NCBI GenBank assembly: GCA_020444175.1
Contig: JAHLLM010000053.1
Location: 1-32,733 of the forward strand
Length of the DNA stretch: 32,733 bases
Direction: 5' to 3'
Source of the DNA: Desulfobulbaceae bacterium
GTDB lineage: Bacteria > Desulfobacterota > Desulfobulbia > Desulfobulbales > SURF-16
A program made the position numbers and the translations under genes. The notes beneath the pieces were generated by a model, which was not told the DNA's origin, ran no database searches, and worked only from the letters and a program-made list of their open reading frames with translations. Shown piece by piece: positions 6,660 through 12,826 of this stretch (the stretch's first letter is position 1; each line of letters starts with the position of its first letter).

Positions 6660-6863
6660 GTAACTATTCAGCTGCACCTCATCTTTGAACGATCAGGCCT
6701 GCTCACATAGACGGGCTATCGGAGTCTCGCAAGCTCGCTTACCTGCCTCGCAGGCCTGCTCGGAGTCTCCACTTCGTTGCGCTTACCTGTCCAAATCTAA
6801 GGCACATCTGAATAGTTACGGCCTGGAGTTGAGGCCCATTTCGAGCCCTCGCTGAATAGATAC
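6660..6863 (+). repeat. Family 1 repeat, full-length copy A
   Basis: A 204-base element. Its first 160 bases are bounded by perfect 12-base inverted repeats, GTAACTATTCAG (6660-6671) and CTGAATAGTTAC (6808-6819). A 44-base 3' module follows, with a GGCCT/AGGCC hairpin (6820-6836) and the near-repeat terminus CTGAATAGATAC. It differs from the copy at 9673-9876 at only four positions by my alignment. It lies between namZ and manC, downstream of namZ. No coding potential was seen. It resembles a MITE or a large REP-type element. Confidence 0.9.
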
Positions 6864-6970: not shown

Positions 6971-8167
6971 CTAGTCTTCATATAGAAAATATTTTCTACG
7001 GATGGCATCGTATTCCTGCAAATCTCCCAGCCAAGATTGTTCAAGCTCCACAATATCCGTACCTCTTTCAATCGATTCCCGCACGTTTTTGGAACCAAGT
7101 ATGAGATCAAGGGGCAGTTTCTCAAATTCATACTCGTAAGGGGGAGTCTTGAAAGCAAAATCTTCAGGATACAACTTCATAATAGCCTGCAGCAGACAAA
7201 GGCTTGTCCGATATGGCCTGAAACGCTGACAGTCACTGACGTGCAACTGGAAGCCAAAACAATTTTTATTTGCCCACTTATTTGACGTGGGAAGAAAAAC
7301 GAGCGGTCGGAGGCTGCAGCCTTCTGTTGCAGCAGGATCTAAGGCATCAAGAAGAGCCCGTGTATTAATATAGGGTGATCCGAAAAGCTCGAATGGTAAA
7401 GTTGTTCCTCTGCCTTCCGAAACATTTGTTCCTTCCCAGATTACCTGACCGGGATAAACCATGGCAGAAAGAGGGCCAGGCATATTGGGCGATGGAAAAA
7501 GCCATGGAAGACCTGTTTCCGGGAAAATCATTCGCCGCTGCCAGCCCTTCATTTTGACAACCTTGTAATCCGCACCTATGCCAAAGTGCTCATTAAAAAG
7601 AAGCCCCAGTTCTCCAAAGGTAAGACCATGCCGCATTGGGACAGGATAGAGACCGACAAAAGAGCGCAGATCTTTATCCACCAGATTGCCCTCCACAAGT
7701 TCTCCGCCCACAGGATTGGGACGATCAAGAACAACAACCTGTTTGCCCCAGGAAGCAGCCGCTTCAAGGCAGTAGGCAAGCGTGGACATGAAAGTGTAAA
7801 CCCTTGTGCCGACATCAATGAGATCCACAATAAGAACGTCAAGATGCTCGAACATGGCTTTGGTCGGTCTTCTCGTTTCTCCGTAAAGGCTGAAAACCGG
7901 CAGACCGGTTACAGGATCAGTCATATGATCGGATTCAATCATATTATCCTGTTTTTCGCAGAAGAAACCGTGCTGGGGAGTAAAAAGGCAGGTAAGCTGT
8001 TCCGGGAATGCATCATAAATCAGATCCCGGCTGTGGGTAAAAAAACTATCTGTAGAGGCCTGATTAACAAGCAGCCCTATGCGTTTTTTTTGAAGCCAAC
8101 GAGGCGGATCAGCAACAAGCATTTCCACGCCGAGTTTGGTCGTATGTTTAGATTCAAGTCTGGTCAT
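6971..8167 (-). CDS. namZ: DUF1343 exo-beta-N-acetylmuramidase (NamZ-like, GH171)
   Basis: A 398-residue protein of the DUF1343 family. Its characterised member, NamZ of Bacillus subtilis, releases MurNAc from the non-reducing end of peptidoglycan fragments during cell-wall recycling. Family blocks are in order: GLLVNQAS at 31-38, TPQHGFF at 63-69, SLYGETRRPT at 93-102, IDVGTRVYTF, DRPNPVGG at 148-155, PMRHGLTFGELG at 177-188 and GTNVSEGRGTTLPFELFG further on. I see no signal peptide, so a cytoplasmic role in muropeptide salvage is likely, although many DUF1343 proteins are exported. The ribosome-binding site at this ATG is weak. It is divergent from the CooC-like gene and lies inside the block bounded by direct family 1 repeats. 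Confidence 0.88.
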   Translation of the reverse strand: MTRLESKHTTKLGVEMLVADPPRWLQKKRIGLLVNQASTDSFFTHSRDLIYDAFPEQLTCLFTPQHGFFCEKQDNMIESDHMTDPVTGLPVFSLYGETRRPTKAMFEHLDVLIVDLIDVGTRVYTFMSTLAYCLEAAASWGKQVVVLDRPNPVGGELVEGNLVDKDLRSFVGLYPVPMRHGLTFGELGLLFNEHFGIGADYKVVKMKGWQRRMIFPETGLPWLFPSPNMPGPLSAMVYPGQVIWEGTNVSEGRGTTLPFELFGSPYINTRALLDALDPAATEGCSLRPLVFLPTSNKWANKNCFGFQLHVSDCQRFRPYRTSLCLLQAIMKLYPEDFAFKTPPYEYEFEKLPLDLILGSKNVRESIERGTDIVELEQSWLGDLQEYDAIRRKYFLYED

Positions 8168-8284: not shown

Positions 8285-9049
8285 ATGAAAATTGCTATAA
8301 GCGGCAAGGGCGGCGTTGGAAAGACAACGATTATGGCCCTTTTGGCCCGCCAAACTCAAAAAAGCGGCAGGGAGGTTCTGGTCGTTGATGCAGACCCAAG
8401 TCCTCACATGGCCCAGAGCCTTGGAATGGACAATATTGGTGACATCACGCCCATTGCTGATATGAAGAAAATGCTGTCCGATCGTTCCGGCAAGGTAGAG
8501 GGTTCTCCTTTTTACAACATCAATCCCAAGATTGATGATCTGCCGGCTCAATTTATGCTGGAAAAAGATGGTGTAAAACTGATGATTCTGGGCGCAATTC
8601 AGACGGCTGAAGGGGGCTGTGCCTGCCCGGAAAACACGGTCTTAAAACGATTACTCACCAAGTTGCTTCTTACTTCAACACAGACAATTTTACTCGACAT
8701 GGAGGCAGGCGTAGAGCATCTTGGCCGTGGAACGATTGCCGGTGTCGATATTCTGCTCATTGTTGTCATTCCTGCCAAATCAAGTGTAAGAACAGCCCTC
8801 AAAATCCAGAAGCTGGCCACTGAATCGGGTATTGGCAAGATACTTTTTGTCGGTAATCAGGTGGAAGATGACGAAGACAAAAAATTTCTTACTGAAGCCC
8901 TGGGTACAGAGCCGATAGCAGTCTTTTCAAGCTCATCCAAAATTCGCAGGGCCGAAAGATCCGGACTTGCCATAACGGAAGTTGATGAGGATATGGACGG
9001 AGTCGCAGCCCAACTGGTAAAAAGTATTGCTGAAGCTCTCACCTCTTGA
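8285..9049 (+). CDS. CooC-like nickel-insertion ATPase (MinD/ParA superfamily)
   Basis: A 254-residue deviant Walker A ATPase with GKGGVGKTT at 7-15 and DADPSPHMAQSLG at 36-48. Cys112 and Cys114 (EGGCACPEN) match in kind and position the CxC pair at the dimer interface of CooC proteins, which mature the nickel-iron-sulfur C-cluster of carbon monoxide dehydrogenase. The rest fits the family (LLDMEAGVEHLGRGT, VIPAKSSVRTA, FVGNQVEDDED). AAAGGA precedes the ATG. No cooS, cdh or acs gene is in the window, so the client protein is unknown. It converges with the selenoprotein gene, with 29 bases between their stop codons. Confidence 0.88.
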   Translation: MKIAISGKGGVGKTTIMALLARQTQKSGREVLVVDADPSPHMAQSLGMDNIGDITPIADMKKMLSDRSGKVEGSPFYNINPKIDDLPAQFMLEKDGVKLMILGAIQTAEGGCACPENTVLKRLLTKLLLTSTQTILLDMEAGVEHLGRGTIAGVDILLIVVIPAKSSVRTALKIQKLATESGIGKILFVGNQVEDDEDKKFLTEALGTEPIAVFSSSSKIRRAERSGLAITEVDEDMDGVAAQLVKSIAEALTS

Positions 9050-9078: not shown

Positions 9079-9597
9079 TTATCCAAAACACAAGCCGCAA
9101 TCAGGGCATGTGGTGGTGGATGTCTGAAACTCAAATCCACAGGCCGGACAGACCGCCTGCTCGGCTTGCGGATTGAAAACGTTATCACACCTGGACAAAT
9201 CGTGATCACTGATTACGGTAGTTCTGTCAATATATGACTGGATGACGGTTACGGCGTCCTGGGCTTCTTCCCTGCGAACCTGCAGGTAAAATGTCGAGCC
9301 TCAACAACTGCTGCTGCACCCCCCGCCTTCCTTGTTTATCAGCGATCCGATATTTTCCGACTCCAATTCCTTTTCAATCGCCTTTAATTCGTTGAGAGCT
9401 CCTTTATGAATTGGGATGATATCCTCACCTGGAAGGATAGCCCCTTTCCGGGAATTCTTCATGGCATCTGTTTGATTTTGGGCGGCCATCATATCGGACC
9501 CCAGAAGCAGCACGATACCGCAAGCAGCGCAAAGTTCGATTTCTGCCCTGTACTCGTCCTTACATTTGGGACAATATTTTAAATCAGGATCAATCAT
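9079..9597 (-). CDS. Probable selenoprotein: double zinc ribbon around a DUF2007-like domain (TGA read as Sec99)
   Basis: An ATG at 9597 with GGAG seven bases upstream opens a frame of 98 codons ending Cys94-Ser-Ser-Ser-Cys98-TGA (TGA at 9301-9303). The same frame then runs 73 codons with no stop to TAA-TAG at 9076-9081. Read through, it gives 172 residues: an N-terminal zinc ribbon (Cys9, Cys12, Cys23, Cys26), a polar linker, an alpha/beta domain at about 58-128 resembling DUF2007 putative signal-transducing domains (IIPIHKGALNELKAIEKEL, then FYLQVRREEAQDAV), and a C-terminal zinc ribbon (Cys150, Cys153, Cys164, Cys167, plus Cys170). The TGA falls between the two halves of the domain, next to Cys98, and a SECIS-like hairpin follows. 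A standard gene call would stop at residue 98 and miss the second ribbon. Alternatives are a recent nonsense mutation or a sequencing error. Function unknown; a thiol/selenol redox or metal-binding role is inference. Confidence 0.82.
9266..9303 (-). promoter_or_regulatory. Candidate bacterial SECIS element with the Sec TGA codon
   Basis: On the minus strand, TGA (9303-9301) is followed after 15 bases by the hairpin CCTGC-AGGTTC-GCAGG (9286-9271), a perfect 5-bp stem with a 6-base loop. The stem extends past one A/G mismatch by U-A, U-A, U-G and U-A pairs. The loop begins 20 bases after the TGA and carries the GGT that SelB recognises. E. coli fdhF has an AGGTCU loop at nearly the same distance. 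Folding was done by eye. Confidence 0.75.
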
Positions 9598-9672
9598 TAT
9601 CTTCTCCCTTATGCTTCATACTCATTGAGTGGAATTTGGGGTTTGTATTCTTCCTCTCATATTACATTATTT

Positions 9673-9876
9673 GTAACTATTCAGCTGCACCTCATCTTTG
9701 AATGATCAGGCCTGCTCACATAGACGGGCTATCGGAGTCTCGCAAGCTCGCTTACCTGCCTCGCAGGCCTGCTCGGAGTCTCCACTTCGTTGCGCTTACC
9801 TGTCCAAATCTAAGGCACATCTGAATAGTTACGGCCTGGAGTTGAGGCCCATTTCGAGCCCTAACTGAAAAGATAC
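9673..9876 (+). repeat. Family 1 repeat, full-length copy B
   Basis: A 204-base direct copy of 6660-6863 with about four differences, three of them in the last 15 bases. Terminal repeats are at 9673-9684 and 9821-9832. It ends eight bases past the hslU stop codon. Together with copy A it brackets namZ, the CooC-like gene and the selenoprotein gene. Confidence 0.9.
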
Positions 9877-9884
9877 CATTATTT

Positions 9885-11261
9885 CTACAAGATGTACCTG
9901 CTCAAATCTTCGTTTTGCGAAATTGCCGAAAGCTGGTTTGTGACATAATCGGCAGTAACGACAAATTCCTGTCCTTCCATGTCCGGGGCATGGAAGGACA
10001 GTTCCTCGAGAAGCCTTTCCATGATGGTATGCAGTCTCCTCGCCCCGATGTTTTCAGTTTTCTGATTTACTTCAGCTGCAATTTTAGCCATTTGTCGGAT
10101 GGCGTCCTCTTCGAAAACAAGCTGGATATTTTCTGTAGCCATCAAGGCGGTATACTGTTTTATCAAAGCATTTTGCGGCTCAGTCAAAATGCGGAAAAAT
10201 TCTTCTTCTCCCAAGGCATCAAGTTCCACTCGAATCGGAAAACGCCCCTGTAGTTCGGGAACAAGGTCTGAAGGTTTGCACAGATGAAAAGCACCACTGG
10301 CAATAAAAAGAATGTGATCGGTTTTCACCATGCCAAACTTGGTTGTTACAGTTGCCCCTTCAACAATAGGCAGCAGGTCTCTCTGCACACCTTCGCGGGA
10401 TACCTCCGCACCTTGTGCCACACCCTGTCTGGAGGCAATTTTATCGATTTCATCCAGAAAGATAATTCCGGACTGTTCCGTTCTCTTGATAGCAAGTTTT
10501 GTCACGGAATCCATATCAATAAGCTTCTCAGCCTCTTCCTTCTGAAGAATTTGCAATGCCTCTTCAACTTTGACTTTACGGCGCTGCTGTTTTTTGGGAA
10601 ACATTTTACCAAACATATCTTTCATGCTGGAACCGACATCATCCATGCCTGTGTTGGAAAAAATCTCAACAATGGGCATGCTTTGAGACTGGTCAACACT
10701 CATTTCGACTATTTTGTCATCAAGCTTGCCTTCACGCAGCATGATTCGAAATTTTTCCCGAGTCGACTCTGTGCTTGATTGAGGCTCCTGGTCTTTGCCG
10801 CCAGGCAGGCTGAGTCTGCCCGAGGGAGAAGCTGATGATCCAGGGACAAGCAGGTCAAGAATTTTTTCTTCAGCCATAACCGCTGCTTTGCCATCGACTT
10901 TTTTACTTTCTTCTTTTTTGACCATGTTCACGGCAAGCTGGGTCAAATCTCGTATCATTGATTCAACGTCTCTGCCAACATAACCAACTTCAGTAAACTT
11001 TGAAGCTTCAATTTTCAAAAAAGGTGATTCGGCAAGGTTGGCGAGTCTTCGGGCTATTTCCGTCTTGCCGACTCCGGTGGGGCCGATCATGATAATATTT
11101 TTAGGGGCAATCTCGTCACGAAGAGGCGGATCGACCTGTTGACGTCGCCAGCGATTACGCAGGGCCACGGCAACAAAGCGTTTTGCATCCTCCTGGCCGA
11201 TGATATACTGATCAAGCTTGGTAACAATTTCTTTCGGGGTAAGGGATTGAGGTGTTGTCAT
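9885..11261 (-). CDS. hslU: HslU, ATPase subunit of the HslUV protease
   Basis: A 458-residue AAA+ unfoldase that feeds substrates to HslV in the cytoplasm. Walker A is GPTGVGKT at 60-67, the pore loop GYVG at 93-96, the I domain about 105-245, Walker B IIFLDE at 266-271, and the conserved C-terminus ends SRYIL, whose tail inserts into HslV. I place the start at the ATG at 11261 ([13 protein letters not shown]). It overlaps the hslV stop as ATGA and matches the family N-terminus; the frame is open 24 codons further upstream, but that extension lies inside hslV. The stop is followed directly by a family 1 repeat. Confidence 0.97.
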
Positions 11262-11809
11262 ATTTTTTCCACAACTAAATGAGTGTTTGTATAAATACAT
11301 ATTGAGCCGGCTATTTCCATGGAAGCCCGGCATATTTCTTCAGCATTGAGCGAACTGTGGGCAACTAGTGCCTTGGCCGCGGCCTGGGCATAGGGTCCGC
11401 CCGAGCCAATGGCCAGGATGCCGTCATCAGATTCTATGACATCACCGGTGCCGCTTAAAATAAAGGCAGCATCTTTGTCTGCGGCAATAAGCATTGCTTC
11501 AAGACGGCGAAGCATCTTGTCTGTTCGCCAGTCCTTGGCCAGTTCGACGGCGGCCCTGGTCAGATTGCCGTTGAACTGTTCAAGTTTCTGTTCAAGTTTG
11601 TCAAAAAGAGTAAAGGCATCTGCTGTTGCTCCGGCAAATCCGGTTACAACCTTATTCTGATAGAGACGCCTCACTTTTTTTGCCTGGTGCTTCATTATCG
11701 TATTGCCAAGGGACACCTGTCCGTCGCCCGCGACAACGATGTCCCCTTTGTGACGTACGCAAAGTATCGTCGTTGATCTTATTTGCGGCTTGTTATTCTT
11801 TGGTTCCAT
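11258..11809 (-). CDS. hslV: HslV, peptidase subunit of the HslUV protease
   Basis: An N-terminal-nucleophile peptidase related to proteasome beta subunits. From the ATG at 11809 it has 183 residues. The catalytic threonine is in [13 protein letters not shown] (Thr13), followed by [11 protein letters not shown] and [13 protein letters not shown]. The usual E. coli protein exposes its Thr right after the initiator Met, so a 12-residue leader would have to be removed here. In-frame ATGs at 11824 and 11848 would make the leader longer still. None of the starts has a strong ribosome-binding site, so the start is uncertain. It is coupled to hslU by a four-base overlap and follows xerC by about 80 bases. 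Confidence 0.95.
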
Positions 11810-11887
11810 AATGTTATTTCTCATCTTTAATGTGCATTGCACGGTCATTGCCGTGGATGCTGTTTACCTGGTCCGGTTTTGATTTTT

Positions 11888-12826
11888 TCAGGAACGTTTT
11901 GCTTTCGGATGAGCCCCATCATAAACATTCATGAGGTGATCCATATTCAGATGGGTATACTTCTGTGTGGTTGATAGACTTGCATGACCAAGCAGTTCCT
12001 GAACTGCGCGAAGATCCGCTCCCATCTCCAGGAGATGGGTAGCAAAGGAGTGCCGTAACGCATGAGGAGTGACCCTTGTTGCAATACCTGCACGCTCAGC
12101 ATAATAACTTACTATTCTTTCCACGCTTCGTGTCGTTAATCTCCCACCTCTACTGTTCAGAAAAAGAGCTTTCAATTCAGGCTCATGGCCTCTTTTAACC
12201 CGGGCTGCGGTTAATTCCCGGCGTTCCGGCAAATAATCATTAATCCTGTCAAGGGCAGGGTCTCCCATGGGGACGAGACGCTGCCGGTTTCCTTTGCCGG
12301 TAACCTTAACCATTCCTCCGGCAAAATCAACCCGGTCGATATTTAACGAGGCAATTTCGGCAACACGCATGCCTGTCGAGTAAAGAAGCTCCAGTACAGC
12401 CTTATCCCTCAAACAGAAAGTATCATTCATCCCTGGTTCATCAAGAAGAGTAAAAACTTCGTCAATGGTGAGATAAACAGGGATATATTTTCCCTGTTTC
12501 GGGGTGGAGACTGCAGCAAAAGGGTCATGGTCAACAATTTTTTCTTTTAAAAGATAGCGAAAAAAAGTCCTGAGAGCGGAAAGTTTTCTGGCCACAGAAG
12601 AACTTTTGCAACGGGAGTTAAGCTGAAACACAAAGGAACGAACAAAATGAACATCAATAGAGTCGACATGCATCGGTTCTTCGGAAAATGATAAGAATTC
12701 AAGAACATCACGCCTGTAATTACTTACAGTATGAGGGGAATAGCCTTTTTCAACTTCCAGCCATTTTATAAAAGAGTGCAGATATGTTTCATCAGCTTGA
12801 TGTTTTTCCTGAAAGAAGATGGTCAT
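11888..12826 (-). CDS. xerC: Tyrosine recombinase XerC
   Basis: A 312-residue tyrosine recombinase that, with XerD at dif, resolves chromosome dimers at division. The N-terminal SAM-like DNA-binding domain spans about 10-100 (EKGYSPHTVSNYRRDV). The catalytic domain has Arg154 (TGMRVAE), Lys178 (TGKGNRQR), His255 and Arg258 (HALRHSFATH), His281 (LGHASLSTTQKYTH) and the nucleophile Tyr290. All catalytic residues are present. Its place directly before hslVU is a known gene order in several phyla and argues for the housekeeping Xer protein over a phage integrase. The start has a poor ribosome-binding site but no better ATG is close. Confidence 0.93.
   Translation of the reverse strand: MTIFFQEKHQADETYLHSFIKWLEVEKGYSPHTVSNYRRDVLEFLSFSEEPMHVDSIDVHFVRSFVFQLNSRCKSSSVARKLSALRTFFRYLLKEKIVDHDPFAAVSTPKQGKYIPVYLTIDEVFTLLDEPGMNDTFCLRDKAVLELLYSTGMRVAEIASLNIDRVDFAGGMVKVTGKGNRQRLVPMGDPALDRINDYLPERRELTAARVKRGHEPELKALFLNSRGGRLTTRSVERIVSYYAERAGIATRVTPHALRHSFATHLLEMGADLRAVQELLGHASLSTTQKYTHLNMDHLMNVYDGAHPKAKRS

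Follow-up and report, generated by a model that had tools for sequence, protein, structure and literature searches.

A DG-family selenoprotein with predicted selenocysteine at the second of two vicinal thiol positions, encoded directly behind hslU in a Desulfobulbaceae bacterium

Does the in-frame TGA of a short gene behind hslU in a Desulfobulbaceae bacterium end a protein of 98 amino acids, or is it decoded as selenocysteine (Sec), and what might the resulting protein do? The gene lies in a DNA stretch of 32,733 nucleotides, analysed as a whole and called the window here (Table 1). A standard listing of open reading frames ends the protein at the TGA. When the TGA is translated as Sec, the frame starts with the ATG at 9597, contains this single internal TGA and gives a protein of 172 residues. 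A preliminary description had correctly placed the gene at 9079-9597, leaving its minus strand unstated, and had proposed readthrough to a tandem stop; the 172-residue frame indeed ends with TAA TAG. C150, C153, C164 and C167 and the Cys-x3-Cys-Sec context that it named are present in the translation. The motif residues are C94-S-S-S-C98-U99-G, with the local reading S-C-U-G-S, and both four-cysteine ribbons that characterise family NF049953 are intact.

Table 1 Features of the DG locus and the genes upstream of it in the window
Feature	Position	Strand	Basis
Selenoprotein DG gene; 172 codons, predicted Sec at codon 99, TAA TAG end	9079..9597	-	Frame translation, NF049953 match
U99, TGA predicted to be decoded as selenocysteine	9301..9303	-	Frame; identical codon in G001
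Cys/Sec motif C94-x3-C98-U99	9301..9318	-	Translation, alignment
N-terminal zinc ribbon C9/C12/C23/C26	9520..9573	-	Cysteine pattern
C-terminal zinc ribbon C150/C153/C164/C167, 3' of TGA	9097..9150	-	Cysteine pattern
Predicted SECIS apical hairpin CCUGC[AGGUUC]GCAGG	9271..9286	-	Folding; rules from PMC13188914
hslU, 5' of DG, same strand	9885..11333	-	ORF list, profile match
hslV (ORF as listed, longest start)	11258..11848	-	ORF list, profile match
xerC-type tyrosine recombinase	11888..12826	-	ORF list, profile match

The window protein matches NCBIfam NF049953 with residues 2-172 over model positions 1-172 of 172 (220.5 bits, E 1.3e-65, cut-off 130). NCBIfam names this family 'zinc ribbon-containing (seleno)protein DG', and the available part of PMC13188914 lists it as NF049953 with the Sec motif GUxG. 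'Hypothetical protein DG' was predicted in 2025 in two Desulfosediminicola strains, and the accessible portion of that paper (PMC12013277) describes homologues with Sec and with Cys as well as SECIS-like structures. The window protein resembles DG in its full-length match, its two ribbons and its central Sec/Cys motif. The architecture had been thought unrecognised; the curated family and the two papers, as far as their available text goes, contradict this, and the NF049953 match and the published protein DG rule out a new family. As the DG family is already on record, the leading claim of a novel selenoprotein does not stand. The motif GUxG, in the form published in the accessible text, puts Sec at the first of the two Cys positions, whereas C-U-G of the window puts it at the second and retains the Cys before it. 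The window protein belongs to the DG family and, with Sec at the second position, lies outside the published GUxG Sec subtype. From the frame, the Sec codon, the hairpin, the Sec genes, the family match and the alignment, the gene is very probably a member of this known selenoprotein family with Sec99.

The two zinc ribbons flanking a middle part are supported for the window protein. The middle part had been called DUF2007-like; weak matches do exist, but all fall below cut-off. DUF2007 (PF09413, putative prokaryotic signal transducing protein) was matched in one of 11 DG members scanned, with 20.0 bits at best (E 7.6e-4, cut-off 25.7), so that none of the 11 reached its gathering cut-off, and NF040569 ('DUF2007_rel') gave a below-cut-off match in two of them. 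PF09413 was absent among the window protein's own matches at E 1 in the profile scan. DG differs from DUF2007 in having extra flanking ribbons and the Sec/Cys motif. Profile scans of the window protein and of DG members gave no match to a thioredoxin-like or other enzyme family, and the ribbons matched HypA, rubredoxin and rubrerythrin models weakly and below cut-off. A search of solved structures with a profile of five DG sequences gave a best E value of 0.092.

DG is widespread in the class, which is probably Desulfobulbia, given that G157 and G158 belong to the window's order: of 257 genomes, 215 have a match, 207 of them above cut-off. An even draw of 297 genomes from the phylum yielded 66 matches, of which the 10 above cut-off all come from the window's order; remote, near-full-length relatives elsewhere in the phylum score 45-88 bits. 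Among the matches listed, together with 65 lower-scoring genomes that were searched again, an in-frame TGA occurs in 19 genomes (the window genome G000, G001, G005, G013, G095, G099, G123, G156-G159, G163, G164, G185, G187, G189, G211, G212 and G213). The DG locus of G212 (L134, G212:C77) changes frame midway and has a Sec98-type motif, GGGUSG, in another frame; this broken locus is absent from the tree and from the counts of motifs and hairpins, and was assigned to Sec98 by eye.

Several lines of sequence evidence indicate that the DG gene of the window almost certainly encodes a selenoprotein. The preliminary description had called it a selenoprotein and had proposed to look for selA, selB, selC and selD; all four are present in the genome above their cut-offs (selC 67.2 bits against a cut-off of 47, selB 367.8, selA 621.9 and selD 379.1 bits), and the complete Sec machinery joins the family match, the hairpin and the TGA shared with G001 in bearing it out. 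The hairpin has a 5-bp stem and a 6-nt loop, AGGUUC, starting 19 nt past the TGA, and lies within the bSECIS rules given in the available part of PMC13188914. The 42 nt 3' of the TGA fold with -13.8 kcal/mol. Under a coded rule near the published one and not identical to it, 17 of 18 Sec forms have such a hairpin versus 15 of 56 Cys forms, with G212 left out and G086 lacking an anchor; these counts are not independent and are inflated because the Sec members are related. The sole Sec form without it is G158, taken as one of the two published strains. Mean fold energy 3' of the codon is -14.3 in 11 Sec forms versus -8.7 in 56 Cys forms. Compared with versions made of synonymous codons, the stability of the window hairpin shows a modest excess (z -1.85; 4.8% of 500 versions equally stable), and the mean z in this control is -1.20 for Sec forms and -0.15 for Cys forms.

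The TGA stands at the identical codon in G001, the only genome of the same genus that was compared. Between the two, the part past the TGA has 0.141 nonsynonymous and 0.662 synonymous site differences, and the part before it 0.155 and 0.759, respectively. The region downstream of the TGA is, judged from these differences, under purifying selection. That the TGA is a genuine stop, a sequencing error or the mark of a pseudogene, with a chance remainder behind it, would fit the minority status of TGA-bearing members (19 of the 215 genomes with a match), but is effectively ruled out by the TGA in two species, the downstream selection, the family match spanning the TGA, the hairpin and the Sec genes. 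The selD gene of the window genome (L102, G000:C79:89271-90194) has an in-frame TGA of its own, and SelD is therefore probably a selenoprotein as well.

The position of Sec divides the family. The motif was aligned in 75 proteins, 57 Cys and 18 Sec forms, which are not a random sample. Residues 94, 98 and 99 are C/C/C in 50 of the 57 Cys forms; G112, G222 and L090 are Cys forms that carry a thiol at 99 and lack one at 98. Seventeen of the 19 TGA members, G212 included, have Sec98, at the first of the two adjacent Cys positions in C94-x3-C98-C99, and G157 and G158 read GUGG in agreement with the published GUxG. Sec99 with C98 retained is found only in the window and G001. In all 16 aligned Sec98 forms residue 99 is Gly or Arg, C99 never being kept, and C94 is missing in 7 of the 16. 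Because C99 and often C94 are lost once Sec stands at 98, one selenol would suffice, which argues against an obligatory C94-Sec98 bond. A tree built without the motif columns requires five changes for two-state and for three-state labels alike, and a constraint uniting the two Sec genera of the window's taxonomic family, its own and that of G005/G013, gives a p-AU of 0.0326; this grouping was picked after the first tree had been viewed, and the support is moderate. A single Sec gain shared by the two genera is accordingly disfavoured, and the tree changes and the p-AU value suggest that Sec99 arose by a Cys-to-Sec change of its own.

In the window, the genes xerC-hslV-hslU-DG follow one another on one strand. 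Conservation of this arrangement was assessed in 76 genomes, a non-random sample made up of close relatives, the members with the best scores, those with a TGA and a few further choices, from which G021 and G026 were dropped for having less than 700 nt upstream. In 51 of the 74 genomes that remain, all with 700 nt or more upstream, hslU immediately precedes DG in the same orientation; eight Sec genomes were entered by hand with rough upstream lengths. The same holds for 11 of the 19 Sec members. The spacing, taken between BLAST match ends and not gene ends, is 18-353 nt with a median of 108. A search of 22 of the 23 non-adjacent genomes located hslU elsewhere in 21; the remaining genome is 63% complete. 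Seven of 10 searched genomes lacking DG have hslU, and in none of 13 remote relatives does DG stand beside hslU, nor was a common neighbour seen in their gene context. Within the class, the tie between hslU and DG is thus strong without being obligatory; the remote relatives examined lack it. The main text of the deep-Sep paper (PMC12013277) does not contain the words 'HslU', 'operon', 'neighborhood', 'ribbon' or 'adjacent', and no paper on a redox- or selenium-dependent HslUV partner was found among titles and abstract openings of the open-licence literature. The part of that literature covered likewise gave no earlier record of the split between Sec99 and Sec98, of the loss of C99 and C94, or of the adjacency to hslU.

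Other features surround the gene. The gap between hslU and DG in the window is 287 nt, or about 119 nt without a repeat of about 170 bp at 9665-9840, which recurs at 6660-6827. The ends of this repeat form an imperfect 28-nt inverted pair, GTAACTATTCAG...CTGAATAGTTAC. It matches 50 places in the genome, fragments included, and 12 copies, itself among them, reach nearly the full length with at least 92%; by its looks it is MITE-like. A scan for promoters and terminators gave 3 and 2 sites versus 1.4 and 1.2 in shuffled sequences. A ParA/MinD/ArsA-like P-loop ATPase gene (8285-9049) converges on DG and also adjoins it in several relatives. The gene at 6971-8167 encodes a NamZ-type exo-beta-N-acetylmuramidase with both Pfam NamZ domains and no NCBIfam match. 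In G198 (G198:C21:39909-41123), the hslU match spans model positions 2-383 of 441 and contains a single TGA, which may reflect a frameshift or a broken copy.

Because DG lies directly behind hslU in most sampled genomes, coupling to HslUV would be its single most likely job, and the simplest use suggested by this adjacency is that of a redox-dependent HslUV partner. The preliminary description had inferred a redox or metal sensor or carrier, without noting the adjacent hslU or the atypical Sec position. We tentatively propose that DG is a thiol/selenol redox switch that may serve HslUV as an adaptor or regulator. UGA is very probably decoded as Sec99, the second residue of the vicinal thiol pair, under the direction of the hairpin just downstream. 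Selenols are more reactive than thiols. The C94/C98/U99 loop would form a reactive, reversibly oxidised thiol/selenol site between the ribbons, and the two zinc ribbons may dock partners. As the motif lies inside the DUF2007-like middle part, itself assigned from weak matches, between the ribbons, oxidation or metal binding could shift the relation between the docking modules. McsA of Bacillus subtilis, which to our knowledge has no Sec, is likened to DG by description alone and serves McsB/ClpC, not HslUV. According to the available part of PMC7235348, McsA is a double-zinc-finger partner in an AAA+ protease system, and its second zinc finger is oxidised under thiol stress, breaking the tie to McsB. 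DG might make the HslUV protease responsive to redox state, much as McsA does for McsB/ClpC. The 23 of 74 genomes without adjacency, the 7 of 10 DG-lacking genomes with hslU and the 0 of 13 remote relatives beside hslU count against this step.

Gene order can persist without shared function. DG could then be a free thiol/selenol oxidoreductase or a peroxide-type enzyme that is not specially linked to HslUV, its gene order being inherited history, a possibility that we hold to be about as likely as the HslUV reading. In keeping with it, Sec98 replaces a near-invariant Cys and the accompanying losses of C99 (16 of 16) and C94 (7) look as if one selenol suffices; 8 of the 19 Sec members have no hslU next door, and remote relatives have other neighbours. 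The failure of thioredoxin-like and other enzyme families to match speaks against such an enzyme, and two ribbons suit a binding protein better. It is somewhat less likely that DG is a carrier or sensor of a metal or cluster, in which C94, C98 and C/U99 bind a metal ion and the ribbons hold structural zinc. The C/C/C set of most Cys forms, the weak ribbon matches to HypA, rubredoxin and rubrerythrin models and the converging ATPase gene in part of the class favour such a role, but several Sec98 forms retain one of the three ligands and the ATPase neighbour is limited to 7 of 21 regions examined.

The fullest form of the HslUV proposal is that DG is a class-specific, McsA-like redox/metal switch of HslUV whose site may be a trithiol, Sec98 alone or C98-Sec99, selenium having reached the neighbouring residue separately in the window's genus; we give it a probability of about 0.27. 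DG offers a natural mutagenesis series, with three Cys, with Sec and the neighbouring Cys lost, and with Sec on the adjacent residue. If the proposal is true, the Sec99 genus would be a natural test of which of the vicinal thiols reacts. Should the link to hslU be functional, many anaerobes of the sulphur cycle would possess an HslUV partner that depends on redox state or selenium.
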